From Shinella zoogloeoides (GTDB lineage: Bacteria; Pseudomonadota; Alphaproteobacteria; Rhizobiales; Rhizobiaceae): a stretch of DNA of 64,000 nt. Shown piece after piece: positions 46,769-63,321 of the stretch. Within the stretch, counting starts at the first letter, position 1, and each line of letters begins with the position of its first letter. Made by a program: the position numbers and the translations under genes. The stretch lies in NCBI RefSeq assembly GCF_022682305.1, contig NZ_CP093528.1, positions 2,617,501-2,681,500 on the forward strand, written 5' to 3'. The notes below the pieces were generated by a model. That model saw nothing but the letters and a program-made list of their open reading frames with translations. It did no database searches and was not told where the DNA came from.

Positions 46769-48520
46769 TCATTCCGGAAACCGGGGGGGCGACTCCATGA
46801 ATTTCAGAATCGGGGTCGCCCACATCGTTTCATGCCGCTGTCTGCGGCTTTTTCCACCGGCGTAACTACCCCTTGCCGGCGGCTTCCTGCTTATGCTTTC
46901 CAGCATTTCGTCGATAAGCGGCTGCGCAGCCGCGGCAATCTTTTCCACGCGCTCTTCGATCGGTAGCGTGGGTTTCATCTGCGGAAACCGCGGGAAGGTT
47001 ATCGAAGACGTACGCCACTGCTCTTTCTCATAGGCGCCGTGCAGCAATCGCCAGTCCATCTCTTCCCGCCAGAGATGGATGACCCTGATCGTCGCTTCCA
47101 GGCGCAGGGATTCTGGATCGTTCACGTTCGACTGGCGACGAACTTCGCGAAGCGCGGCCTCCAGAAACGCCAGCGCGCAATTCAACTGATATCTGGTGCT
47201 ACGGTAGGAAACGGCCATCCTTATATGTTCGTGAACAAGCAACTGCTCTGGCCGGACACCCTTTTGGTTGATGCCGATATTCCCGATGCCGGTGTTACGC
47301 TCGGCATGGAGTTTTTCCGCGGGCGACCCAAAAAGCTCAAATTCGAGTTCGCCCCGCGTATGGGTCGCTTCGACGATGGAGTATATCAGCGCCCTCGTGG
47401 CCTTCCGCGGCGATCCGTTTTCCGCAGGCCATATCCGATTGAGCACATCGTTGATCAGCGTCCATGTCGCGGGAGCTACATAGGATCGGGTCGTGCGCCG
47501 GCCCATTCCCGTCGGATTGATATCCTTGTCGTATTGCTGTTCGATCCGCTCGACGATCGTCTGCAAGGCCTCCTTGAATCCGGGCGGGTTCCTGGCCGCC
47601 ACGAGCCGCAATCCTGCCTGCCGCTCGCCAAGGTCGCCCGCCTTCAGGATCGGCTCGATAATCCCGGCCGCCAGGCGGCTGGCGGCAGTGACTGTTCCTG
47701 GCTCAACCAGGACTACCCGGAAGAGCGACGAAGCCTCCTCCGCCAGGAACTCAAGGAAAATATGGAATGCTCGATCGCTATGGCCTTCCATCTCGTTCCC
47801 GAGGACAGCAAATTTTTCCGGGAGGAGCTCCGCGAAGATGTCGCCCAGGACCGGAAACCAGTATCGAACCAGATGCGGTATCAAGCCGTCCCTGCCCGGC
47901 AGCGCCGTCAGATGACGGATCATATCCGACACCATGCCCGCCAGCGCTTCCCTGTCCGCTTTCATGCAGACCATCTCGATAAAGCTCGGCAGGATCGCGG
48001 GCTTGACGAGGCCGGTCGGGCTCTCATTCAGGACATGTTTCAGGTCCTGACGCGCTTGCCGGTCATCGGCGGGAACAAAGACGGATCGTCCGGCAGGGAT
48101 CGTGGCAGCTCTTCTGCTCACATCGACCTCAACGGGAGTGTATTGTGTCTCGGCAAACGGGAAGCCGCCGAGAAGCGCCTCGATCGATGCCGCCTCGAGT
48201 TCCGCCAGACGCCGTAACCAGCGCTCGATGAAGCGGATTGAATAGTTTGAAAGCTCCGCCAACTGCCCCGATATTACCGACACTCTGGGAACCAGAACCT
48301 CCTCCGCCCGATCCAGGCGGTAAATCGTGGCCGTCGCCATTAGGTCGCCGGCAACCGCCGTCAATGCGGTGCTAAAATCCTTCGAGCCGATCGTCTGCCC
48401 CTGCAGTGTCAGAAGCTCCCGATAGGCGCTCCTGATATCGGCGATGAATGCCTTCTCCGTCAGAGCCGCTATAAGGTCCTCTTCGGATGTGATTTCTTGT
48501 TGGCTCTGCTCTTGCGGCAT
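46769..48520 (-). CDS. conserved unknown protein, 583 residues
   Basis: This predominantly alpha-helical soluble protein has no motif I recognise. Landmarks are an acidic N-terminus (QSQQEITSEEDLIAALTEKAF), a Leu-rich helical middle, YDKDINPTGMGRRTTRSYVAPATW and TRALIYSIVEATHTRGELEFELFG. Its ATG shares one base with the stop of the 137-residue gene (TGATG), so the two are coupled. Its last codons run through motif copy 3, the presumed control site of the methylase gene downstream. A role in element replication or transfer is only a guess from position. Confidence 0.75.
   Translation of the reverse strand: MPQEQSQQEITSEEDLIAALTEKAFIADIRSAYRELLTLQGQTIGSKDFSTALTAVAGDLMATATIYRLDRAEEVLVPRVSVISGQLAELSNYSIRFIERWLRRLAELEAASIEALLGGFPFAETQYTPVEVDVSRRAATIPAGRSVFVPADDRQARQDLKHVLNESPTGLVKPAILPSFIEMVCMKADREALAGMVSDMIRHLTALPGRDGLIPHLVRYWFPVLGDIFAELLPEKFAVLGNEMEGHSDRAFHIFLEFLAEEASSLFRVVLVEPGTVTAASRLAAGIIEPILKAGDLGERQAGLRLVAARNPPGFKEALQTIVERIEQQYDKDINPTGMGRRTTRSYVAPATWTLINDVLNRIWPAENGSPRKATRALIYSIVEATHTRGELEFELFGSPAEKLHAERNTGIGNIGINQKGVRPEQLLVHEHIRMAVSYRSTRYQLNCALAFLEAALREVRRQSNVNDPESLRLEATIRVIHLWREEMDWRLLHGAYEKEQWRTSSITFPRFPQMKPTLPIEERVEKIAAAAQPLIDEMLESISRKPPARGSYAGGKSRRQRHETMWATPILKFMESPPRFPE
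46778..46797 (-). repeat. shared upstream motif, copy 3 (before C5-methylase)
   Basis: This copy is identical to the 20-base motif at 42295. It lies 54 bp before the methylase ATG and inside the last codons of the upstream 583-residue gene. Confidence 0.75.
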
Positions 48521-48933
48521 CAATCTTTGTCCTTCCCGGACCTGATGTCGGCTGCGCGTCGGATGCGCTCGGCAACATCGGTGAGCGCTAGTCGGTCTGC
48601 TTGCATGTTGGCTGGAGCGGAATGCCGGGTCCTGTCGGGTCCGACCGGCGTAACGGTTGCGACAGGCGCCGGTGGTCGTGCCTGCTGTGATCGTTGTATC
48701 CGGGAGACCATCGCTCTGACCACCTGCGCACTGACGATGCCGCCTGACTTCGAGCGCCAGCCGGCATCGCTGAGAATCATGGCGATCTGGTCCCAGCTCG
48801 CCCCCTGGTTTCGCCAGCCGGTGATTGTCGCAAGATGGTCGCGTAGCACACGTGCAGCCGGCAGCGGACCGAGCGCGGTGCATGATGCCGCGACGATCGC
48901 GCGCGCCTTTCGCGTCTCGTCCCGCTTGTTCAT
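48520..48933 (-). CDS. small helix-turn-helix-like protein
   Basis: This 137-residue protein has a central helical region, ITGWRNQGASWDQIAMILSDAGWRSKSGGIVSAQVVRAMVSRI. It reads as a DNA-binding helix-turn-helix of the type seen in element-borne accessory proteins (recombinase or replisome helpers). The N-terminus is basic (MNKRDETRKARAIV) and the C-terminus Pro- and Ala-rich, then charged. GGAGGGAGA lies about 10 bases before the ATG. It is first in a two-gene unit with the 583-residue gene. Confidence 0.7.
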   Translation of the reverse strand: MNKRDETRKARAIVAASCTALGPLPAARVLRDHLATITGWRNQGASWDQIAMILSDAGWRSKSGGIVSAQVVRAMVSRIQRSQQARPPAPVATVTPVGPDRTRHSAPANMQADRLALTDVAERIRRAADIRSGKDKD

Positions 48934-50106: not shown

Positions 50107-50307
50107 ATGATGAAAAGCCTATCCGCAGCCGAGGCGAAGAACGCCTTTGGTCATCTCATTGATCTCGCTCGTCACGAACCTGTGCTGATTGAAAAACACA
50201 ATCGTCCGGTGGTCGTGGTTATCAGCATCGAAGAATACGACCGGTTGATGGGCGGGGCCTTTTCCCATCCTCAGGTGGACAACACGCAACCAAAGGGTAA
50301 GGCATGA
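50107..50307 (+). CDS. Phd/YefM-family antitoxin-like protein without a toxin
   Basis: This 66-residue protein has the Phd/YefM N-terminal DNA-binding fold: MKSLSAAEAKNAFGHLIDLARHEPVLIEKHNRPVVVVISIEEYDRLM. The usual C-terminal toxin-binding tail is short (HPQVDNTQPKGKA), and no RelE, Doc or PIN toxin follows. Its TGA overlaps the ATG of the SNF2 helicase gene (ATGA), so it is the leader of the defence operon and probably its transcriptional regulator. GAGGGGAGA precedes the start; ATG codons at 50107 and 50110 are both possible. Confidence 0.88.
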   Translation: MMKSLSAAEAKNAFGHLIDLARHEPVLIEKHNRPVVVVISIEEYDRLMGGAFSHPQVDNTQPKGKA

Positions 50308-53300
50308 AACTTCTCCGCAATTCGGGGAACGAGCGAGTTCTTGACCGCCTTCAGTCGTGGCTGTCTCCCGGCTCAGCGGTTGATCTCATGTCACCCGATT
50401 TCTCACTTTATGCGTTCGCCGAAACGCATGACCAGCTCAAGAAGGCTGGACGGTGCCGTATCCTGCTTGGCTCCGACACTTCCATTACGGGTTCCCTTTA
50501 CGGCGGACCAGGGGACATTACCGCGCGCGGCAAGCTGCAAAGTCGCTGGCTCGCCAAAATTGCCGGTGAATGGCTGGACAAGCACGCCGAGGTTCGTCAC
50601 GCCCCGGCTACGCCGCCCCAATCCATGATTGTCATTTCCAACGACGACAATCGCCACGTCCTGACGGGCACATGCCCGTTCACAACCGAAGGGCTGGGCG
50701 TGACGCCGGGCGACCGGCTCGGCTTAGTCCAGTTTTCCGATACGGATGCGGAGGCGGCGGCTTTTGCTGACTGGTTTCAGTCGAGCTGGGGCAGCGTAAA
50801 GCCGGGGGCGAGTACACTTGCCGCTAATCTCGATGATGCGGCGAGCCATCGCCCGCCGTCGCTCCTTTATTTCAAGGTGCTCTACGAGCTGTTTCGTGAC
50901 ATCGGCGACGAGCTTGACGAGGAGCGGATCATCAAATCCGCCACCGGCATTCGTAACACCACCGTCTGGAACAAGCTTTTCAAGTTCCAGCGTGACGGCG
51001 TTGTCGGTGCCATCGACAAGCTGGAACGCATCGGCGGTTGCATTATCGCCGACAGCGTCGGCCTTGGCAAAACCTTTGAGGCCCTTGCCGTCATCAAATA
51101 TTATGAGCTGCGCAACGACCGCGTTCTTGTTCTCTGCCCCAAGCGCCTGCGCGACAACTGGACGCTCTATAAGGCCAACGACCGCCGCAATACCCTTGCG
51201 TCCGACCGCTTCAATTATGACGTGCTCAATCACACTGACCTGTCGCGCGACGGCGGCATGTCCGGCGACATCGACCTCAGCCATGTGAATTGGGGCAACT
51301 ACGACCTTGTCGTGATCGACGAGTCCCACAACTTCCGCAACAAGGCGACCCATAAAGACCGCGATACCCGTTACGACCATTTGATGAAGCGCATCATCAA
51401 GGCAGGCGTCAAAACCAAGGTGCTCATGTTGTCGGCCACGCCGGTCAACAATCGCCTTGCCGACCTCAAGAACCAGATCGCTTTCATGACCGAAGGCAAC
51501 GACCTCGCCCTCATGGGCCATGGCATCCAGAGCATCGAGGCCACCATCCGCAAGGCGCAGACACAGTTCAACCGCTGGTTAGACCTGCCCGAGGCCGAGC
51601 GCCGCCCGGCACGGCTGATGGACATGCTCGGCTTCGACTATTTCAAGCTGCTGGACCTGCTGACCATCGCCCGCTCCCGCAAGCACGTGCAACGCTATTA
51701 CGGCACCGAAGAAACCGGCCAGTTCCCGGAGCGCCTGCCGCCCGTCAACATCAAGGCCGACGTGGACCTTGCCGGAGAGTTCCGGCCTATCCGCGAGATC
51801 AACAACGAAATCAGACGGCTCACGCTCGCGGCCTATGCGCCGCTGCGCTACGTCCTGCCGCACAAGCAGGCCGTCTATGACGAGAAATACAGCACCAAGA
51901 TCAGGGGCGGTGAGAGCTTTTTCCGGCAGGTGGACCGCGAAGAAAGCCTCATCCACCTGCTGCGCGTCAATATTCTCAAGCGCATGGAAAGCTCGGTCGC
52001 GTCCTTCGCGCTCACCATCAAGCGCCAGCTTGCCGATGTGAACGCGCTCTTGGCGAAGATCGATGCCCACGATGAAAGCGTGGACGAGGTTTCCATCGAC
52101 GATGTCGATATAGACGATCCTGCTTTTGAGGCTCTGCTGATAGGGCGCAAGGTCAAGGTCTTGCTCCACGACGTTGACCGCGTTCGCTGGCGGCAGGATT
52201 TGATCGAGGACCGCAATCGCCTTGCCACGCTACTGTCCGCCGCGCAGGCCGTCACGCCGGAACGCGACGCCAAGCTGGCGGCATTGAAAGACGTGATCGC
52301 TCGCAAGGCCGCAGCCCCGATCAACGCCGGGAACCGCAAAATCCTGTTGTTCACCGCTTTTGCCGATACGGCGGATTATCTCTACGCGCAGCTTGCGAGC
52401 TGGGCGAAGGACGAGCTTGGGCTTGAAACCGCCGTTGTATCCGGCACGGGCGCGAACAAGACAAGCCTGCGCGGGCTGCGTGGCGACATGAGTTCGATCC
52501 TCTCGGCCTTTTCTCCACGCTCGAAAGAGCGCCCGGATGAAATGAGCGCCGAAGGCCAGATCGACCTGCTGATTGCCACCGACTGCATTTCCGAAGGGCA
52601 AAACCTTCAGGACTGCGACTTCCTTACCAATTACGATATTCACTGGAACCCCGTGCGGATCATCCAGCGGTTCGGGCGCATCGACCGCATTGGCTCAACC
52701 AACACCCGCATCCAGTTGGTCAATTTCTGGCCCAACATGGAGCTGGACGAATATCTCGACCTCGAATCCCGCGTCAGCGGGCGCATGGTGCTGCTCGACG
52801 TGTCCGCGACCGGCGAGGAAAACGTCATCGAGTTTCAGGCCGGAAACCAGATGAACGATCTCGAATATCGCCGCGCCCAACTGCAAAAATTGCAGGACAC
52901 GGTGATCGACCTTGAGGATTTGTCCAGCGGCGTTTCCATCGCCGATCTTACACTCAACGATTTCCGCATCGACCTTGCCGGATATATGCGCGAGCACCGC
53001 GAGCGGCTGGAAACCCTGCCGCCCGGCACTTATGCCGTGGTGCCTGCGCCAGATGCATCCGCCCCAGAAAATGATCTGCCGTCCGGTGCCATTTTCTGCC
53101 TGCGCGCCGTTGGCGAGGCGGCGGAACGCGCCGCCGAACCCGGCTACCCGCTGAGTCCCAATTTCGTCGTCCATGTCGGCGACGAAGGCGAGGTGCTTCC
53201 CTATACGCAGGCGAAACAGGTGCTCGACCGGCTCAAGAAGGCCGCCATCGGGCGCGACCTGCCCGATGCCGAAGCCTGCACGCGCTTCGACAAAGCCACC

Positions 53301-53501
53301 AGATACGGGCGCGACATGGAGGATTATCAGGCGCTTCTTGCACGCGCCGTCGCCTCCATCGCTGGCAAGAGCGAGGAACGCGCCGTCGCCAGCCTATTTA
53401 GCCCCGGCGGTACTCACGCCCTGAAAGGCGAGTTTGCCGGTATCAACGACTTCGAGGTTGTCGCCTTTCTTGTCATCCTGCCCGAAACGGAGGCCACATG
53501 A
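50304..53501 (+). CDS. SNF2/HepA-type helicase with degenerate PLD-like N-terminus
   Basis: This 1065-residue protein has an N-terminal 180 residues resembling the phospholipase-D-like module of SNF2-PLD proteins. The expected HxK...GSxN is replaced by MIVISNDDNRHVLTGTCPFT, so it is probably inactive as a nuclease. The SNF2 ATPase follows: motif I IADSVGLGKTFEAL near 250, DESHNFRN near 339, LSATPVNNRLADLKNQ, and motif VI RIIQRFGRIDRIGS near 787 after EGQNLQDCDFL. A C-terminal regulatory domain completes it. It should translocate on DNA. It is the second gene of the operon; its stop overlaps the DUF4391 start (ATGA). Confidence 0.92.
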   Translation: MKLLRNSGNERVLDRLQSWLSPGSAVDLMSPDFSLYAFAETHDQLKKAGRCRILLGSDTSITGSLYGGPGDITARGKLQSRWLAKIAGEWLDKHAEVRHAPATPPQSMIVISNDDNRHVLTGTCPFTTEGLGVTPGDRLGLVQFSDTDAEAAAFADWFQSSWGSVKPGASTLAANLDDAASHRPPSLLYFKVLYELFRDIGDELDEERIIKSATGIRNTTVWNKLFKFQRDGVVGAIDKLERIGGCIIADSVGLGKTFEALAVIKYYELRNDRVLVLCPKRLRDNWTLYKANDRRNTLASDRFNYDVLNHTDLSRDGGMSGDIDLSHVNWGNYDLVVIDESHNFRNKATHKDRDTRYDHLMKRIIKAGVKTKVLMLSATPVNNRLADLKNQIAFMTEGNDLALMGHGIQSIEATIRKAQTQFNRWLDLPEAERRPARLMDMLGFDYFKLLDLLTIARSRKHVQRYYGTEETGQFPERLPPVNIKADVDLAGEFRPIREINNEIRRLTLAAYAPLRYVLPHKQAVYDEKYSTKIRGGESFFRQVDREESLIHLLRVNILKRMESSVASFALTIKRQLADVNALLAKIDAHDESVDEVSIDDVDIDDPAFEALLIGRKVKVLLHDVDRVRWRQDLIEDRNRLATLLSAAQAVTPERDAKLAALKDVIARKAAAPINAGNRKILLFTAFADTADYLYAQLASWAKDELGLETAVVSGTGANKTSLRGLRGDMSSILSAFSPRSKERPDEMSAEGQIDLLIATDCISEGQNLQDCDFLTNYDIHWNPVRIIQRFGRIDRIGSTNTRIQLVNFWPNMELDEYLDLESRVSGRMVLLDVSATGEENVIEFQAGNQMNDLEYRRAQLQKLQDTVIDLEDLSSGVSIADLTLNDFRIDLAGYMREHRERLETLPPGTYAVVPAPDASAPENDLPSGAIFCLRAVGEAAERAAEPGYPLSPNFVVHVGDEGEVLPYTQAKQVLDRLKKAAIGRDLPDAEACTRFDKATRYGRDMEDYQALLARAVASIAGKSEERAVASLFSPGGTHALKGEFAGINDFEVVAFLVILPETEAT

Positions 53502-54268
53502 TGGCGGGTGCGGACTTCCTCGCCATTGTCAACGCGCTGGGACTTCCGCCCGGCGCGCGTGTCGATTCCCGCGTCCCCAAAAAACTGCTGATCGAGCAAG
53601 GCGCGCCGACGGCCGCCGACAAACGCGCCATTCAGGACGGGATCGACGAATTGCAGTGGTTCGCCGCCTGCAAGCCCGCCACCATCGGCGTTCCGGCATT
53701 TTCCGACGATACCCGCGAATATCTTGAGATTGCCGTTGTCGGCTGCGCTTTCCGTGCCGGTGCGAAGGCGTCGCGGCTGATCGAGCTGATCCACCGCGCC
53801 ATTCCCTATCCGGTACTGCTTGCCACCACCGACGAGAGCGGCCTTGCCGTGTCGGCAGCGCACAAGCGCCACGCGCAGAACGAGGCAGGCCGCATCGTGA
53901 TCGAGCAGGTTATCATGGCAAGCGGTTTGCGGGCCGACGCCGTGGATTCCGTGCAGGTCGCGTTCCTGAAAAGCCTCGCGCTGGCACAACAGCCGCGCAC
54001 CGACCTGTTCGGCCTCTATGCGGGATGGATTGCACGGATCGAAGCCGTCAACGCCGCCCGCCTGACGGGCGCGTTTGCTCCGACCGACGATCAGGAAGCC
54101 ATCGACCGCCGCCGCGCCGCGCTCGACGCGCATGTGCGGCTTACCAAAGAAATCGAAGGTCTGCGCGCCAAGGCCAAGCGCGAGAAGCAGCTTAGCCGCC
54201 GCGTGGACCTCAACCTCGAAATTCAGCGCCGCGTGGCCGATCTCACTGGAATTGCGAAATGGCTGTAG
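53498..54268 (+). CDS. DUF4391-family protein
   Basis: This protein of about 256 residues begins MMAGADFLAIVNALGLPPGARVDSRVPKKLLIEQGAPTAADKRAIQDGI, with ELQWFAACKPATIGVPAF and YLEIAVVGCAFR. That is the pattern of DUF4391, a family found between the helicase and methylase genes of type III-like restriction loci. A C-terminal coiled coil (EIEGLRAKAKREKQLSRRVDLNLEIQRRV) suggests an assembly role. Biochemical function is unknown. It overlaps the helicase stop and the PLD gene start (10 bp). Confidence 0.85.
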   Translation: MMAGADFLAIVNALGLPPGARVDSRVPKKLLIEQGAPTAADKRAIQDGIDELQWFAACKPATIGVPAFSDDTREYLEIAVVGCAFRAGAKASRLIELIHRAIPYPVLLATTDESGLAVSAAHKRHAQNEAGRIVIEQVIMASGLRADAVDSVQVAFLKSLALAQQPRTDLFGLYAGWIARIEAVNAARLTGAFAPTDDQEAIDRRRAALDAHVRLTKEIEGLRAKAKREKQLSRRVDLNLEIQRRVADLTGIAKWL

Positions 54269-55263
54269 TGGCGAAGAACCAAGGTCCAAGAGCGATTGTA
54301 GGACCGCTCGTCTCCGACATCGCCAGCATCAGTGGCGATGACGTGACCTTGGCCACGGCATTCTACACAAGCGGCGCCTTGGATGTTTTGAATATCAAGG
54401 CCAAGCGCCTCCGCCTGTTGATGCGACTCAACACTCAATCAGTTGCAGACTGGGCAGTGGGTTCGCTCGACCCTCTCGCGCTCCGAGCATTCATCCAAAG
54501 GCACAAGCAAACATGTGGAGAAGTCTCGCTGCTCATCAGCCCCACTGCCCATGCAAAAATCTACAGCGGTCAAAACGGCTATCTCGTCGGCAGCGCCAAC
54601 CTCAGCACCCGCGCCTTATCTGGGAGCGCCGCGGAAATTCTTTGGTTTGAAAGTGATGATGAACGAAAGCGAGCGATGGACGCCGCTGTTCAGGATTACT
54701 CGCAAAAATTCAGCCCGTGCAGTATCGCTCAGCTGGATGCCTACATTGCTGCGAATGAGGTCAAAGCCAAGGAACTCTCAAAAAAGATCCCCCGAGAGAT
54801 GTTCACCGATGAAGAAGATCGCCTCCCCAGAGGGATTCTGCGACCCGCACGCCTGGGCGACTACGATGCGTTTCTGGGCTGGCTCTCGAAACACACCAGC
54901 CCGGCTGCAAAGGAGGTGCTGGCACGAGCTAATGGCAAGTCGAACCTGAGTGGTCATATTCGACAAGCGTTTTTCGGGCTTCGGCAGTTTTTGCTTGGTG
55001 CTCCGGACGTCATGTATCACTTTACTAAGGTCGATCCAGATAGCTATTCTTTCTCGAGCGACGTCTCCACCGCTTCCAAGCTCGGCTCATTCGTCACCAA
55101 ACATGCCCGTGACGAAGGCCCGTTTTCTCCCAAGAAGTGGCAAACCTACCTGCCAAAGAGCGCCGGGGGTAAGCAGGTAACTGGGGGCGCAACATCTGGT
55201 AACTTGAACCGTATGCTCCCGCTAATTGCGCGCTATCTGACTGTGAGAATTGGAAAAATATAG
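54259..55263 (+). CDS. phospholipase-D-like (HKD) putative nuclease
   Basis: This 334-residue protein has one intact HKD-like motif, AHAKIYSGQNGYLVGSANLSTRAL (residues 96-119), as in PLD-family nucleases such as Nuc and BfiI, where a dimer forms the active site. The N-terminal stretch ISGDDVTLATAFYTSGALDVL is typical of the fold; the C-terminal 150 residues are unassigned. Its base composition is clearly lower in GC than the genes to its left, and it shares this with the first part of mod. It may supply nuclease activity that the degenerate N-terminus of the helicase lacks. Confidence 0.82.
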   Translation: MAVVAKNQGPRAIVGPLVSDIASISGDDVTLATAFYTSGALDVLNIKAKRLRLLMRLNTQSVADWAVGSLDPLALRAFIQRHKQTCGEVSLLISPTAHAKIYSGQNGYLVGSANLSTRALSGSAAEILWFESDDERKRAMDAAVQDYSQKFSPCSIAQLDAYIAANEVKAKELSKKIPREMFTDEEDRLPRGILRPARLGDYDAFLGWLSKHTSPAAKEVLARANGKSNLSGHIRQAFFGLRQFLLGAPDVMYHFTKVDPDSYSFSSDVSTASKLGSFVTKHARDEGPFSPKKWQTYLPKSAGGKQVTGGATSGNLNRMLPLIARYLTVRIGKI

Positions 55264-57200
55264 TGACTGAAAGTTGTGCCCAGATGGAAAAAATCAAAAA
55301 GGGCGATGCACTCGCTCAAAGCCAGAACCTAATCGAACAGAACATCGCCAGCTTACGGGAGATTTTTCCAGCGTTGCTCGTGGAGGATGGTGACGGCGGG
55401 TATGCTGTTGATATTGAGCTTCTCAAGCAACTCGTCGGCGATGCGACATTATCGACCGCCGACGAAAAGTACGGGCTGTCTTGGTATGGAAAACGCCAAG
55501 CCCGTCAAATTGCCTTGACACCATCTACAGGAACACTTTTGCCGTGCCCCGATGAAAGTGTCGATTGGCAAGACTCTAATAACCTTCTCATCGAAGGGGA
55601 CAATCTTGAAGTTCTAAAACTCTTGCAGAAGAGCTACAATCGAAAAATCAAAGCCATCTATATAGACCCGCCTTACAATACGGGACGAAACCTAATTTAT
55701 CCGAATGATTATCAAGACGGAGTTCAAGCGTATTTAGAGGTGACGGGTCAGATCAAAGGCGGAAATAAGCTTCAAAGCAATCCAGAATCAGGCGGGCGAT
55801 TTCATACCAACTGGCTATCTATGATCTACCCGCGCTTGAAGCTCGCGCGGAACCTGCTTGCGCCAGATGGCGTCCTCATCGTGACGATAGACGACAATGA
55901 GGTAAGTCAACTTGGCGTCGTTCTGCGCGAAGTGTTTGAAGAGGGGAACTTCGATCACGTCTGCGTTCCTGTCATCCACAATCCACGAGGTGTTCAAGGC
56001 AAGAACTTCTCCTACGTTCATGAGTATGCCTATTTTGTATATCCGGCTGGAACCAAGGCAATTTGTGATCGTAAAATTGAGGATGAGAATGTTGACTGGT
56101 CTCACCTCCGAAATTGGGGGTCAGAGTCAGAACGATCTGACGCGAAAAACTGTTTTTACCCCATTCTCGTCAAGGATGGGACAATCATCGGATTCGGTGA
56201 CGTCTGCCCAGATGAATTTCACCCTCGCCAGACTGAGGTGGTCGAAGGTATTTCCTACGTTTACCCAATCGACAAGGCTGGGGTGGAGCGCAAATGGCGT
56301 TATGCACGGCAATCGGTTGAGGCGATTGCTTCCATGCTGCGCGCCAAGCAAACCAGCTACGGATATGAGATCGAACTCGGAAAAACCTTTGGCCTCTACC
56401 GCACTGTGTGGAACGATAAGAGGTATGACGCCAACGATAACGGGACAGGGCTAGTCGGCGACCTCGTCCCGGGTTCACCGTTCACATTTCCTAAGAGTCT
56501 TTGGGCCGTCTATGATAGTCTGCTCGCCGCAACCGGGAATGACCCCGACGCTATAGTTTTAGACTTCTTCGCTGGCAGTGGCACTACCGGCCATGCCGTC
56601 ATGGAGTTGAACAAGGATACAGGCGGAAATCGGCGGTTCATCCTCGTCCAGTTGCCAGAACCTGTTGAGGACAACAAAAAATTCCCTACGATCTTTGAAG
56701 TCACCAAAGCGCGTATTAAGGCGGCGGGAGAACGCATCAAGGCCCAGTCTCCCATGTTCACGGGCGATGTTGGCTTTCGCGTTTTTAAGCTCGCGTCGTC
56801 CAACATTCGCGCGTGGGAACCCGAACCGACCGACCTGGAAGGCACCTTGCTCGCCAATGCCGAGCATCTTGTAGCGGGCCGCACCGAACAGGATGTGCTC
56901 TATGAGCTGTTGCTCAAGCTGGGCCTCGACCTGTGCGTTCCCATCGAGAAGAAGGACGTTGCCGGGAAGGCCGTCCATTCCATCGGCGGCGGAGCACTGT
57001 TCGCTTGCCTTGCCGATGGTCTTACTACCGACACGGTTGAAGCCGTCGCCAATGGCATCGTCGCATGGTGGAAGGAACTCGCGCCCGCCGTTGACACCCG
57101 TGTCGTGTTCAAGGATTCCGGCTTTGCCGATGACGTAGCCAAAGCCAACATGGCGGCAATCCTCAATCAGAACGGCATCCTCGACGTGAGGAGCCTGTGA
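55263..57200 (+). CDS. type III restriction-modification N6-adenine methyltransferase (Mod)
   Basis: This protein of about 645 residues is a beta-class amino-methylase: the catalytic AIYIDPPYNTGRN (near 135) precedes the SAM motif VLDFFAGSGTTGHAV (near 434), with a target-recognition region between. WLSMIYPRLKLARNLLAPDGVLIVTID is typical of Mod. It should methylate adenine in an asymmetric site to protect the host and, with Res, form the restriction complex. GTG at 55263 overlaps the PLD stop (TAGTG); the ATG at 55284 is an alternative. Composition shifts from AT-richer (to about 56760) to GC-rich in the C-terminal 145 residues, so the gene looks mosaic. Confidence 0.93.
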   Translation: MTESCAQMEKIKKGDALAQSQNLIEQNIASLREIFPALLVEDGDGGYAVDIELLKQLVGDATLSTADEKYGLSWYGKRQARQIALTPSTGTLLPCPDESVDWQDSNNLLIEGDNLEVLKLLQKSYNRKIKAIYIDPPYNTGRNLIYPNDYQDGVQAYLEVTGQIKGGNKLQSNPESGGRFHTNWLSMIYPRLKLARNLLAPDGVLIVTIDDNEVSQLGVVLREVFEEGNFDHVCVPVIHNPRGVQGKNFSYVHEYAYFVYPAGTKAICDRKIEDENVDWSHLRNWGSESERSDAKNCFYPILVKDGTIIGFGDVCPDEFHPRQTEVVEGISYVYPIDKAGVERKWRYARQSVEAIASMLRAKQTSYGYEIELGKTFGLYRTVWNDKRYDANDNGTGLVGDLVPGSPFTFPKSLWAVYDSLLAATGNDPDAIVLDFFAGSGTTGHAVMELNKDTGGNRRFILVQLPEPVEDNKKFPTIFEVTKARIKAAGERIKAQSPMFTGDVGFRVFKLASSNIRAWEPEPTDLEGTLLANAEHLVAGRTEQDVLYELLLKLGLDLCVPIEKKDVAGKAVHSIGGGALFACLADGLTTDTVEAVANGIVAWWKELAPAVDTRVVFKDSGFADDVAKANMAAILNQNGILDVRSL

Positions 57201-57712
57201 TGAGCACGGAAAGTTTCGTCACCTTCGCCTACGGCTCCAACATGCCCGCCGCGCGCTTGCGGGAGCGGTGCCCTTCCGCGCCCGCAATCGGCATCGCTGA
57301 ACTGTCCGGCTATGAATTGCGCTGGCACAAGCGCAGTCGGGACGGGTCGGGCAAGTGCGATATTGCCGCCAGCGCCGCCGGTGATTCCGTGCTTGGCGTA
57401 CTCTATGAGATCGCGGCGCACGACAAACGCGCGCTTGACCGCGCCGAAGGCTTGGGCGTCGGCTACGAAGAAATCGAGATCGAGGTTCTTTGCGGCGGCA
57501 GTCCGATACCAGCCAAGGCATATAGAGCGACCGATACCGATCCCGCGCTTCGCCCCTATACATGGTATCGCGCCTTGGTCATCGCGGGCGCGCGGGAACA
57601 CGGTCTTCCCGCATCCTATATCACGAGGCTGGTATCCGTGCCTGCCGACGAGGATCAAGACCGCGCGCGCCACGACGAGCGCATGGCTTTGATCGCGGAG
57701 GTGCGGGCATGA
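57200..57712 (+). CDS. gamma-glutamylcyclotransferase (AIG2/GGCT-fold) family protein
   Basis: This 170-residue protein begins MSTESFVTFAYGSNMPAARLRERCPSA, where FAYGSNM is the substrate-loop signature of the gamma-glutamylcyclotransferase fold. LGVLYEIAAHDKRALDRAEGLGVGYEE contains the conserved acidic residue position, and YTWYRALVIAGAREHGLP follows. In the cytosol such enzymes release 5-oxoproline from gamma-glutamyl peptides; inside a restriction operon its substrate is unknown. GAGGAG lies before the ATG at 57200, which overlaps the mod stop (TGATG). Its stop overlaps the res start (ATGA), so it is fully embedded in the operon. Confidence 0.88.
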   Translation: MSTESFVTFAYGSNMPAARLRERCPSAPAIGIAELSGYELRWHKRSRDGSGKCDIAASAAGDSVLGVLYEIAAHDKRALDRAEGLGVGYEEIEIEVLCGGSPIPAKAYRATDTDPALRPYTWYRALVIAGAREHGLPASYITRLVSVPADEDQDRARHDERMALIAEVRA

Positions 57713-60690
57713 AACTGCATTTCGAGCCGAACCTCGACTATCAGCACACCGCCATCGAATCCGTCTGCGACCTGTTTCGCGGGCAGGAGATCAACCGCAC
57801 CGAGTTTACCGTCACCCGCCAAGCAGGCGGCGGCGCGCAGCAGGAGCTTGGCCTTGTCGAAAACGCGCTCGGCATCGGCAACCGCCTGACCCTGTTGGAC
57901 GATGAAATCATCTCCAACCTCAATGAGATTCAGCTTCGCAACGGCCTGCCGCCGTCAACCGGCCTCGCCTCTGGCGACTTCACCGTGGAAATGGAGACGG
58001 GCACCGGCAAAACCTATGTCTATCTGCGCACCATCTTCGAGCTGAACAAACGCTTCGGTTTCACCAAATTCGTGATCGTGGTGCCGTCCGTCGCCATCAA
58101 GGAGGGCGTCTACAAGACCCTCCAGATTACCGAGGACCATTTCAAGGGCCTCTATTCCGGCCAACCCTTCGATTATTTCCTCTACGACTCGTCGAAGCTG
58201 GGGCAGGTGCGCAATTTCGCTACCAGCCCGACCATCCAGATTATGGTCGTGACCGTGGGCGCAATCAACAAGAAGGACGTGAACAACCTCTACAAGGACA
58301 GCGAAAAAACTGGCGGCGAAGCGCCTATCGACCTGATCCGCGCCACGCGCCCCGTCATTATCGTGGACGAGCCGCAAACCGTGGACGGCGGCCTGAAAGG
58401 GCAAGGCAAACAAGCGCTCGACGCCATGAATCCGCTTTGTACATTGCGCTATTCCGCAACCCATGTTGACAAGCACCACATGGTATACCGGCTGGATGCC
58501 GTGGATGCCTATGAGCGCAAGCTGGTTAAGCAGATCGAAGTGGCCTCGCTCGAAATCGAGGGTGGGCATAACAAAGGCTATCTGCGTTTCCTTTCCGCCA
58601 GCAACAAGGGCGGTGCCGTTATCGCCAAGGTCGAGATCGACGTGCAGCGGGGTGGACAGGTTCGCCGCAAGGAAGTCACCGTGCAAGATGGTGACGACTT
58701 GGAGGATACGACGGGCCGCGCCGTCTACAAGGATTGCCGCATTGGCGAAATCCGGGTCGCGGGCAAAGATTCTCTGCTCGAAGTGAAAACCGCCGGGTCG
58801 GAATCCTTCCTCGCCGTGGGGCAAGCCATCGGCGACGTGGACGCCGACGCCGTCAGGCGGCTCATGATCCGCCGCACCATTACCGAGCATCTTGAGAAAG
58901 AACGCCGTCTTGCGCCGCTCGGCATCAAGGTGCTTAGCCTGTTTTTCATCGACGCCGTGGAGCACTACCGTTCCTACGACGAGGATGGAAACACGGTGAA
59001 AGGCAAATATGCGGCAATCTTCGAGGAAGAGTATCGCCGCGCCGCCAAGCTCCCCGAATATGCCAGCCTGTTCAGGGACGTGGACCTCGAAACCGACGCC
59101 GGAGAAGTGCACGATGGCTATTTCTCCATCGACAAGAACAAGCGATGGACCGACACCGCCGAGAATAATCAGGCCAACCGTGACAGCGCCGAACGCGCCT
59201 ATAACCTCATCATGAAGGACAAGGAGAAGTTGCTCAGCTTCGACACGAAGCTCAAGTTCATCTTCTCCCACTCCGCGCTGAAAGAGGGTTGGGACAATCC
59301 CAACGTGTTCCAGATTTGCGCGCTGCGCGAAATCGGCACCGAGCGCGAACGCCGCCAGACCATCGGGCGCGGCCTGCGCCTCAGCGTCAACCAGCAGGGC
59401 GAACGGCTGCGCGGTTTCGAGATCAACACGCTGACCGTAATCGCCACCGAGAGCTACGAAGCCTTCGCCGAAAACCTACAGAAAGAGATCGAGGCTGATA
59501 CCGGCATCCGTTTCGGCATCGTCGAGAAACACCAGTTCGCGGCTATCTCCGTCCAGCAAGAGGACGGCACCCTCGCCATGCTAGGATTTGAGGAATCCGC
59601 CGCGATCCACGAGTATCTCAAAAACGCCGACTTCATCGACGCCAAGGGCAAGGTGCAGGACAAGCTGCGCACGGCGCTGAAAGAGGGGACGCTTACGCTC
59701 CCCGATGAGCATGCCGCACACCTTCCGCAGATCAAGGAAGTCCTACGTAAAATCGCCGGTAAGCTCGACATCAAAAACGCCGACGACCGCAAAGCCGTGC
59801 GCGTGCGCAAGGAAGTCTTGCATAGCGCCGAGTTTCAGGCGCTATGGGATCGCATCAAGCACCGGACGACCTATCGCGTTCACTTCGACAACGCCAAGCT
59901 GATCGAGGATTGCACCAAGGCTATTTCCAATGCGCCGCCGATCACCAAGGCGAAGGCCGTCATCCGCAAGGCCGACCTTGCTATTGGCCAAGGCGGCGTG
60001 ATCGCTACCGAAACCTCGACTTCTGGCCCCGTGACCATCGAGGAAGGCGATATTGTTCTCCCCGACGTGCTGACCGATCTTCAGGACCGCACCCAGCTTA
60101 CGCGCCGCAGCCTTGTCACCATCCTGACCGAGAGCGGCAGGCTTGGCGATTTCAAGCGCAACCCCCAAGCTTTCATCGAACTGGCGGCGGAAACCATCAA
60201 CCGCACCAAGCGCCTCGCGCTCGTGGACGGCATCAAATACCAGCGGATCGGCGACGATCATTTCTACGCGCAGGAGCTATTCGAGCAGGAGGAGTTGACC
60301 GGCTATCTGAAGAACATGCTTCAGGATACGCAGAAATCCGTGTTCGAGCATGTCATCTACGACTCCGGCGGTGTCGAGCGCACCTTCGCCGAGCAGCTTG
60401 AAAAGAACGAGGCGGTGAAGGTTTACGCCAAGCTGCCGGGTTGGTTCAAAGTCCCCACGCCCCTCGGCACTTACAATCCCGATTGGGCGGTGCTGGTGCA
60501 GGTGGACGGCGCGGAACGCCTGTATTTCGTTGTCGAGACGAAAGGCAGTCTGTTCACCGACGACCTGCGCGACAACGAAGCCGCGAAGATCGCCTGCGGC
60601 GAAGCGCACTTCAAGGCGCTTGCCGTTGACGAGAATCCAGCCCGCTACATCAAGGCCACGAAGATCGACGACCTCATGGAGTATTGCTGA
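57709..60690 (+). CDS. type III restriction endonuclease subunit (Res)
   Basis: This 993-residue SF2 helicase-nuclease begins MKLHFEPNLDYQHTAIESVCDLF. It has Walker A VEMETGTGKTYVYLR near 94, motif II IIVDEPQTVDG near 221, RYSATHVDKHH, and motif VI RRQTIGRGLRLSVNQQG near 550. The C-terminal PD-(D/E)xK nuclease has NPDWAVLV and FVVETKGS near 923-943. With Mod it should cut unmodified DNA after ATP-driven translocation. The ATG at 57709 overlaps the GGCT stop; the frame's upstream extension is antisense-free but overlaps GGCT and is rejected. Confidence 0.95.
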   Translation: MKLHFEPNLDYQHTAIESVCDLFRGQEINRTEFTVTRQAGGGAQQELGLVENALGIGNRLTLLDDEIISNLNEIQLRNGLPPSTGLASGDFTVEMETGTGKTYVYLRTIFELNKRFGFTKFVIVVPSVAIKEGVYKTLQITEDHFKGLYSGQPFDYFLYDSSKLGQVRNFATSPTIQIMVVTVGAINKKDVNNLYKDSEKTGGEAPIDLIRATRPVIIVDEPQTVDGGLKGQGKQALDAMNPLCTLRYSATHVDKHHMVYRLDAVDAYERKLVKQIEVASLEIEGGHNKGYLRFLSASNKGGAVIAKVEIDVQRGGQVRRKEVTVQDGDDLEDTTGRAVYKDCRIGEIRVAGKDSLLEVKTAGSESFLAVGQAIGDVDADAVRRLMIRRTITEHLEKERRLAPLGIKVLSLFFIDAVEHYRSYDEDGNTVKGKYAAIFEEEYRRAAKLPEYASLFRDVDLETDAGEVHDGYFSIDKNKRWTDTAENNQANRDSAERAYNLIMKDKEKLLSFDTKLKFIFSHSALKEGWDNPNVFQICALREIGTERERRQTIGRGLRLSVNQQGERLRGFEINTLTVIATESYEAFAENLQKEIEADTGIRFGIVEKHQFAAISVQQEDGTLAMLGFEESAAIHEYLKNADFIDAKGKVQDKLRTALKEGTLTLPDEHAAHLPQIKEVLRKIAGKLDIKNADDRKAVRVRKEVLHSAEFQALWDRIKHRTTYRVHFDNAKLIEDCTKAISNAPPITKAKAVIRKADLAIGQGGVIATETSTSGPVTIEEGDIVLPDVLTDLQDRTQLTRRSLVTILTESGRLGDFKRNPQAFIELAAETINRTKRLALVDGIKYQRIGDDHFYAQELFEQEELTGYLKNMLQDTQKSVFEHVIYDSGGVERTFAEQLEKNEAVKVYAKLPGWFKVPTPLGTYNPDWAVLVQVDGAERLYFVVETKGSLFTDDLRDNEAAKIACGEAHFKALAVDENPARYIKATKIDDLMEYC

Positions 60691-60691
60691 T

Positions 60692-60868
60692 ATGGGCGAT
60701 GTGCCGCCTGACATTCTAGCTGCAATCAAGGCCGCCGCGAAAGAGGAGTGGCCCGACAACCGCGATATGCAGGAATATTGTATCGAGGAGGAACCAGAGG
60801 TTATCTGGCTATCGTCGGTTTGGACTTTGGTCGCTCTCTGCCGATGTCAGGCGTTTAGGTTAACATAG
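60692..60868 (+). CDS. small type-III-operon tail protein, probably 3'-truncated
   Basis: This 58-residue frame starts 1 bp after the res stop: MGDVPPDILAAIKAAAKEEWPDNRDMQEYCIEEE. The pattern AxxEWPxxxxMQ-Y-IE is that of a short conserved protein at the end of many restriction operons and other gene pairs. After IEEE the sequence (PEVIWLSSVWTLVALCRCQAF) no longer looks like the family, and GC content falls. The gene was probably cut at its 3' end by a recombination event at the island's right side. Confidence 0.6.
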   Translation: MGDVPPDILAAIKAAAKEEWPDNRDMQEYCIEEEPEVIWLSSVWTLVALCRCQAFRLT

Positions 60869-62596: not shown

Positions 62597-62977
62597 ATGC
62601 GCGTGGAAATTCTCGGCGATGAACGTCGCCGACGTTGGAGTGATGAGAGCAAGCTGGAGGTCGTGCTGTCGGTAGGCATCGACGGTGCGTCGGTGACGGA
62701 GGTTGCGCGCCGGCATTCGGTGACGCGGCAGCAGGTTTACACCTGGCGGCGTGAATTGCGGAAGAAAGGCTTGCTCGCGCCGCCATCGACGACGGTGTTT
62801 CTGCCGCTGGACATGCCACCTCTCGGGGGCAGCAAAGAGGCTCCGGCTTTTGATGGCATGCAGGCTTTGCCTGCGATGATGGAATTGCACTTACGCTGCG
62901 GGCGAAGCCTTCGCTTCAGTGGCGATCTTGATGTGGTTGCACTGAAGCGCCTGATCCGGGCAATCGAGGCGGCATGA
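62597..62977 (+). CDS. tnpA: IS66 accessory protein TnpA
   Basis: This 126-residue protein has an N-terminal helix-turn-helix (RRWSDESKLEVVLSVGIDGASVTEVARRHSVTRQQVYTWRREL) of the IS3/IS66 OrfA type. It is required for IS66 transposition and presumably binds element DNA or aids the transposase. Its TGA overlaps the tnpB ATG. Length is normal for the family. Confidence 0.92.
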   Translation: MRVEILGDERRRRWSDESKLEVVLSVGIDGASVTEVARRHSVTRQQVYTWRRELRKKGLLAPPSTTVFLPLDMPPLGGSKEAPAFDGMQALPAMMELHLRCGRSLRFSGDLDVVALKRLIRAIEAA

Positions 62978-63321
62978 TCGGGCCTGGGACAGGTGTTCGT
63001 GTTTATCTCGCCTGCGGTGTCACGGACATGCGCAAGGGGATCGAGGGGCTGGCAGCTCTTGCCCAGGATGTGCTGCGCCAGAAGCCGACGGGAGGCGCGG
63101 TCTTTGCGTTTCGGGGCAAGCGGGGCGACCGTTTGAAACTTTTGTATTTTGATGGCCAGGGGTTCTGCCTCTATTACAAGGTTCTGCAGAAAGGTCGGTT
63201 TCCCTGGCCGTCGGCAGCAGATGGGACAGCCCGGTTGACGTCTGCTCAACTGGCGATGCTGTGGGAAGGGATTGATTGGCGACGACCCGACTGGGGCGCT
63301 CCTCCAGCCCGTGTTGGTTGA
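62974..63321 (+). CDS. tnpB: IS66 accessory protein TnpB (Orf2 family)
   Basis: This 115-residue protein is typical of IS66 Orf2: GVRVYLACGVTDMRKGIEGLAALAQDVL, GAVFAFRGKRGDRLKLLYFDGQGFCLYYKVLQKGRFPWP and a C-terminal LTSAQLAMLWEGIDWRRP. It overlaps tnpA by 4 bp and lies 63 bp before tnpC. Its biochemical role in transposition is not known. Confidence 0.95.
   Translation: MIGPGTGVRVYLACGVTDMRKGIEGLAALAQDVLRQKPTGGAVFAFRGKRGDRLKLLYFDGQGFCLYYKVLQKGRFPWPSAADGTARLTSAQLAMLWEGIDWRRPDWGAPPARVG

Follow-up and report, generated by a model that had tools for sequence, protein, structure and literature searches.

A predicted four-gene variant of type III restriction-modification with a conserved helicase-DUF4391-Mod-Res gene order

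The question raised by positions 50107..60868 of the Shinella zoogloeoides DNA analysed here (64,000 nucleotides of contig NZ_CP093528.1, positions 2,617,501 to 2,681,500, referred to below as the window) is which of the genes found there belong to one defence system, and how such a system might work. Eight open reading frames (ORFs) are present and overlap as described in an earlier sequence-only reading, which took all of them for a single extended type III restriction operon. Comparison with relatives indicates that the unit is a four-gene core, encoding an SNF2-family helicase, a DUF4391 protein, and the type III subunits Mod and Res, and that this core is common among bacteria. An eight-gene unit is rejected: an HKD-like protein and a gamma-glutamylcyclotransferase-like (GGCT) protein occupy insertion slots within the core, and a Phd-type regulator and a small tail ORF are peripheral to it. 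The helicase-DUF4391-Mod-Res set is judged to be a new, apparently unnamed variant of type III restriction-modification, its function being predicted from sequence.

The loci compared come from GTDB genomes, plasmids, and viral contigs and were selected for similarity to DUF4391 or the helicase, not at random; one relative search contributed its best 80 of 570, and the loci were annotated with hidden Markov models (HMMs) built from the first survey set. That first survey gave 121 non-redundant loci, and each of the 91 complete ones has the order helicase-DUF4391-Mod-Res on one strand. In an enlarged set of 172 non-redundant loci, from which duplicates, loci of a sister class described below, and loci L154-L180 were set aside, 127 are complete and 127 of 127 have this order; the remaining 45 are incomplete, most of them at contig ends. 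Because the order recurs in every complete locus, the gene run is more than chance, and its constancy suggests that a two-gene Mod-Res system may be insufficient here. The helicase and DUF4391 genes usually overlap; they lie no more than 60 nucleotides (nt) apart in 148 of 156 loci, at exactly -4 in 83 of these. The genes of the window operon are as follows.

50107..50307, plus strand: Phd/YefM-type small regulator, 66 amino acids (aa); Pfam PF02604 (PhdYefM), 7e-14
50304..53501, plus strand: core gene 1, SNF2-family helicase, 1065 aa; SNF2-rel_dom and Helicase_C; N-terminal PLD-like region without HxK
53498..54268, plus strand: core gene 2, DUF4391 protein, 256 aa; PF14335, 9e-69
54259..55263, plus strand: slot A insert, HKD-like protein P0004, 334 aa; single motif HAK...GSANLS
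55263..57200, plus strand: core gene 3, type III Mod, 645 aa; N6_N4_Mtase; PADLOC MTase_III, 565 bits; DPPY and FAGSG motifs
57197..57712, plus strand: slot B insert, gamma-glutamylcyclotransferase/AIG2-like (GGCT) protein, 171 aa; PF13772 (AIG2_2), 8e-15, and PF06094 (GGACT), 8e-9
57709..60690, plus strand: core gene 4, type III Res, SF2 helicase and PD-(D/E)XK nuclease; ResIII; RE_endonuc, 7e-36; PADLOC REase_III, 1309 bits
about 60692..60868, plus strand: tail ORF, 58 aa; membership of the system unsupported

Overlaps are 4 nt between the regulator and the helicase, 4 nt between the helicase and DUF4391, 10 nt between DUF4391 and the HKD-like protein, 1 nt between that protein and Mod, and 4 nt both between Mod and GGCT and between GGCT and Res; the tail ORF begins 1 nt past Res. 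The starts of the regulator, Res, and the tail ORF were inferred by counting residues, and the Res ORF, which begins at 57562 as listed, shows family homology from residue 50, hence the start at 57709. The tight run of eight ORFs claimed earlier is thus sound in its frames, its junctions, and most of its families, with the exception of the PLD half assigned to the helicase and of the tail protein. The latter is unsupported as an operon gene because it matches no family and because none of the 215 other locus stretches searched, many of which end short of that place, holds a homologue. The regulator, beside which no toxin partner was seen, is upstream of the core and peripheral to it; a Phd-like ORF occurs in one of the same 215 stretches, directly upstream of the L246 helicase, and small helix-turn-helix genes occupy its place in some other loci.

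The sequence-only reading had asked whether the gene order is conserved beyond Rhizobiales, and it extends over many bacterial phyla and one archaeon. Complete loci come from hosts such as Pseudomonadota, Bacillota, Actinomycetota, Bacteroidota, Chloroflexota, Planctomycetota, and Verrucomicrobiota, together with the archaeon Methanomethylovorans hollandica, and core loci occur on chromosomes, plasmids, and viral contigs. The identical order, with inserts in some cases, is found in annotated plasmid records, independent of the survey HMMs; in Acetobacter and Desulforapulum it runs up to Mod and is followed by a broken or partial Res. DUF4391 relatives are encoded by at least 53 of 72,556 plasmid records, a lower bound because the search missed DUF4391 in at least two plasmids. 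On an Acinetobacter plasmid, Tn7-like genes (TnsA, Mu transposase C-terminal domain, TniB, TniQ) lie directly upstream of the operon (L039:2011-7623). Among 398 Pseudomonadota genomes, with 24 weaker Res matches and two DUF4391 fragments dropped before counting, there are 42 strong RE_endonuc matches (E <= 2.1e-20) in 41 genomes, and DUF4391 occurs in 23 genomes, 22 of which also have a strong Res match. Eighteen of the 42 strong Res matches lie within 12 kilobases (kb) of DUF4391 on the same strand, and a further four are in genomes with DUF4391 on another contig, so that 18, at most 22, of the 42 are associated with it. The earlier proposal that the helicase and DUF4391 belong with Mod and Res is borne out by this co-occurrence and by the constant order.

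The Mod and Res subunits themselves are of ordinary type III character. The solved structures nearest to them are those of EcoP15I, with Mod matching 4zcf_A at 1.5e-51 and Res matching 4zcf_C at 1e-69, the PD...ETK nuclease stretch being aligned; together with the PADLOC, ResIII, and RE_endonuc matches and the DPPY and FAGSG motifs, these place Mod in the type III family and identify in Res both an SF2 helicase and a PD-(D/E)XK nuclease. With loose patterns and with stand-alone loci included, PD...ExK is found in 127 of 128 Res proteins, DPPY in 138 of 138 Mod proteins, and F-G-S in 118 of 138. In type III systems generally, cleavage requires ATP and two unmethylated sites in head-to-head orientation, and N6 methylation is on one strand.

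The helicase had been described as an SNF2-PLD fusion. Its PLD-like region has no Pfam PLD match, and alignment with homologues that keep HxK shows that this motif is gone. Against the PADLOC model PDLC01075 'HKD+Snf2' (C3a139) it scores 388 bits, with residues 184-1057 covering model positions 190-946 and the HKD part uncovered. The motif HxK...GSSN is intact in 0 of 141 helicases that adjoin Mod or Res, versus 8 of 8 in the sister class; among other helicases it is intact in 1 of 13 found with DUF4391 only (L118, which fits a loose HKD pattern, though outside the aligned columns), in 1 of 7 seen alone (L129, with HxK aligned, on a 3.3-kb contig showing the helicase only), and in 0 of 2 short ones. 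Ten other non-sister helicases have H or K alone at the HxK columns. By a loose motif pattern VGLGKT is present in 157 of 157 non-sister helicases of at least 1000 aa, and the ATPase motifs are kept. The candidate in which the PLD-like region is an active nuclease was rejected on the absence of HxK from the window helicase and from all 141 helicases that have Mod or Res next to them, and the region is predicted to be catalytically inert. The PLD-based second effector arm suggested earlier fails in this respect for the helicase, although the HKD-like protein in slot A could still be an effector.

The sister class is represented in the genus of the window by genome G006, in which a relative of the helicase, with an intact HGK...GSSN and a PLDc_2 match, has a 4-nt gene overlap with a 1385-aa Eco57I/TaqI_C methyltransferase containing a DUF4391-like stretch; no Mod or Res was seen at that locus. 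Seven more such loci were found, of which two (L185, L236) are cut by a contig end, one (L235) has the methyltransferase in two frames, and in one (L184) the helicase is followed by a gap of 912 nt; viral contigs, too, encode relatives of the sister-class helicase, at 51 loci. In a FastTree of 165 helicases a fully supported branch separates the eight sister-class proteins from the rest, and the contrast in motif is therefore one evolutionary split, whose weight is exaggerated by a Fisher test on the motif counts.

DUF4391 is predicted by AlphaFold2 with high scores (predicted local distance difference test, pLDDT, 96.5; predicted template-modelling score, pTM, 0.92) as an alpha/beta body with long C-terminal helices. 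Of 178 PDB matches that Foldseek gave at E<=10, none reached E<=0.001. Profile comparison with PDB chains yielded just two weak matches, both to NADH dehydrogenase (0.023 and 0.025), and no PADLOC or NCBIfam model was matched; in the literature searched DUF4391 appears in one paper, as a table entry. A recognisable nuclease was rejected as its identity, no PDB fold or profile match supporting one. The N-terminal region of the sister methyltransferases aligns with DUF4391 (hhalign 97.3%, E 2e-11, 147 columns), and the Pfam DUF4391 model matches the sister-class methyltransferase P0012 at E 1.2e-6 and 29.0 bits, slightly below the 29.9 cut-off. Because the sister clade fuses a DUF4391-like region to a methyltransferase, beside an intact-HKD helicase and with no Mod or Res seen, DUF4391 is probably a domain coupling helicase to methyltransferase, with Res as the working nuclease, and we infer that the nuclease task may have been handed over from the HKD domain of the helicase to Res. 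The same fusion would also suit a different wiring, in which the helicase and DUF4391 aid modification, through Mod access or DNA remodelling, or restrain Res from self-cutting, in place of promoting restriction. The nuclease motif is intact in the sister helicase, however, pointing to an ancestral role in restriction, and this wiring is considered quite improbable.

The reading preferred here, with a probability of roughly 55%, is that of a type III restriction-modification system enlarged by the helicase-DUF4391 pair and working as follows. Mod, as an N6-adenine methyltransferase, would mark host DNA at an asymmetric site, and DUF4391 would dock the SNF2 motor onto the Mod-containing complex, much as its homologue in the single-chain methyltransferases would do in cis. 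The motor might then translocate on unmodified DNA, or strip it, thereby activating Res or extending its reach, and Res would cut in place of the HKD domain that is predicted to cut in the sister-class helicase. Genes in the slots, in the window those for the HKD-like and GGCT proteins, would be accessory or back-up effectors dispensable for the core.

Slot A lies between DUF4391 and Mod, and slot B between Mod and Res. A gap of at least 300 nt is found in slot A in 41 of 147 loci and in slot B in 45 of 130, versus 7 of 156 between helicase and DUF4391; 57 of the 127 complete loci have one or both such slot gaps and 70 have neither. The slots elsewhere often carry toxin- or Abi-like genes. Pfam scans covered 24 slot-A and 38 slot-B proteins, those of the window included, and gave, as raw counts, RhuM (6), Schlafen AlbA_2 (5), Fic (4), GGCT (3), and DUF1016 (3), with GmrSD, Zeta toxin, AAA_13, DUF2130, KilA-N, PLDc_2, DarT, macro, HipA, and Abi_2 among the other families. 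Of 65 cargo ORFs, the scans covered all but the 5 between helicase and DUF4391. At L122:3459-5780 that gap holds ORFs that resemble, by eye, a CD-NTase-type nucleotidyltransferase and a membrane protein. At an Enterobacter plasmid locus (L233:12958-16250) slot A contains an annotated ATP-dependent endonuclease and a DUF2130 gene. In the window, the HKD label of P0004 is based on a motif read by eye and one weak PADLOC match (ZacB, 6e-4); P0004 has no Pfam match, no PDB relative, and no relative in 122 other loci. It is a probable PLD-type nuclease, judged by its motif, and could be an extra effector in the window locus alone. The window GGCT recurs among the same 122 loci in slot B at L074 (66% identical) and L079 (57%).

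Such cargo raises the alternative that the helicase and DUF4391 act as a guard, monitoring Mod and Res or DNA intermediates and releasing the toxin-like genes of the slots when a phage blocks restriction, for which the coupling of PrrC to a type I enzyme is a parallel. The presence of Fic, Zeta toxin, DarT, macro, HipA, Abi_2, RhuM, Schlafen AlbA_2, GmrSD, and AAA_13 in the slots, and the far greater frequency of large gaps there than between helicase and DUF4391, speak for it. On the other side, the core cannot depend on cargo because 70 of the 127 complete loci have neither gap, the window GGCT is not known to be a toxin, and the cargo counts are raw; a guard function appears unlikely. A wider proposal, held tentatively and with considerable doubt, treats the unnamed type III branch (18, at most 22, of the 42 strong Res in the Pseudomonadota sample) as a four-subunit machine in which a dead-nuclease SNF2 motor would be clamped to Mod-Res by DUF4391, a protein for which no relative of solved fold was found, and in which the slots would hold interchangeable suicide effectors fired on failed restriction; it would have evolved from or alongside a system of helicase-nuclease and single methyltransferase, the nuclease job having passed to Res.

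Several observations weigh against the enlarged type III system proposed above. EcoP1I-type systems function without helicase or DUF4391, and seven Mod-Res loci (L156, L162, L163, L167, L170-L172) have 5.5-10.5 kb of upstream sequence with no helicase of this family. Four-gene and stand-alone Res are intermixed in a Res tree of 136 rows, with 11 label changes, although several rows labelled stand-alone are contig-cut, L175 and L178 are four-gene by default, and L173, L174, and L176 are labelled stand-alone though their genomes carry DUF4391 on another contig. In a 43-row tree a starred clade of 6 rows unites the EcoP1I Res of phage P1 with five stand-alone Res. Because EcoP1I-type systems function without the helicase and DUF4391, and stand-alone loci are intermixed with the four-gene ones, Mod and Res may not strictly need this pair. 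The HxK contrast, moreover, is one event in the helicase tree and not many. Individual loci also depart from the pattern: L216:4860-12114 has a tandem array of HNH protein, helicase, and Res but neither DUF4391 nor Mod; the viral contig L226:1-6496 is permuted, with Res, helicase, and DUF4391 followed by a Piwi-domain protein, possibly a prokaryotic Argonaute; at L230 and L231 distant helicases stand without DUF4391, Mod, or Res in about 7.5 kb; L057 has DUF4391 at the contig start and no Mod in 9.6 kb; L099 has Fic and a Tn3 transposase after Mod, and no Res; Mod is fragmented in L131 and present as short pieces in L191, L204, and L211. In L154, L166, and L180 a different SNF2 helicase (that of L180 scoring 601 bits against PADLOC DrmD) stands just before Mod-Res without DUF4391, and a second association of SNF2 helicases with type III systems may therefore exist.

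The stand-alone Mod-Res loci, and the occurrence of the helicase family with a different methyltransferase, would also be expected if two independent defence modules, one a Mod-Res pair of the usual type III kind and the other built from helicase and DUF4391, shared one promoter. This is improbable, given that no complete locus departs from the order and that helicase-DUF4391 pairs without Mod and Res are found only near contig ends.

Around the window operon, G+C content is mostly 0.61-0.68 upstream versus 0.52-0.62 inside. IS66 transposase genes lie at 62597-63321, less than 2 kb downstream, and an ORF of 704 aa without Pfam, PADLOC, or NCBIfam match (E<=0.001) lies upstream on the minus strand, at 46769-48883.

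Among known systems, type III enzymes (EcoP1I, EcoP15I) share with the window operon the Mod and Res subunits, their motifs, and the order mod then res seen in the phage P1 record, and differ in lacking the upstream SNF2 helicase and DUF4391 and the two cargo slots. The DUF499-centred BREX-related systems (Type-2 BR / Hma) are alike in combining an HKD+SNF2 helicase, an N6 methyltransferase, and a small conserved protein, and carry a DUF499 ATPase and DUF3780, according to the available part of PMC12839542. The window operon differs in that its methyltransferase is of type III and Res is present; neither DUF499 nor DUF3780 has a Pfam match among nine operon and flank proteins, and among the PADLOC matches listed for these nine PglZ and BrxC do not appear and BrxH is only a cross-match of the helicase. 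The PbeABCD / CxC-ABC systems likewise have HKD fused to an SF2 helicase, but are built around an ABC ATPase and DndE, as described in the available part of PMC10853773; PbeA is not among the PADLOC matches listed (25 of 42) for the window helicase and scores 47 bits with the sister-class helicase. DISARM is alike in having a methyltransferase and an SNF2 helicase, the latter partly like DrmD (150 bits versus a 610-bit cut-off). The absence of drmA and drmB, remarked on in the sequence-only reading, holds in the PADLOC scan, in which neither is found as an operon gene: for the nine proteins no DrmB is among the matches listed, and DrmA is only a helicase cross-match (25 of 42 listed). The ARMADA / YprA-helicase systems are also large helicase-centred defence operons, but have YprA-family helicases and no Mod-Res pair in the part of PMC12458937 available. 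Assignment to DISARM, BREX, or BR was rejected, their defining genes not being matched in the Pfam and PADLOC scans. The impression that the set matches no named type likewise stands, in that no name for it was found in the literature searched, mostly outside subscription journals and including the accessible parts of PMC2292703 and PMC7784981; a name may exist.

Because Mod and Res match standard models and DUF4391 matches none, surveys using PADLOC or NCBIfam libraries would probably score these loci as plain type III. Should the helicase and DUF4391 prove necessary, a large fraction of type III systems would work unlike EcoP1I and EcoP15I. Because the HKD motif is intact in one clade, where no Res was seen, and lost in the other, where Res is present, the proposed nuclease hand-over is directly testable, and the two slots offer a map of the effectors that travel with a restriction system.

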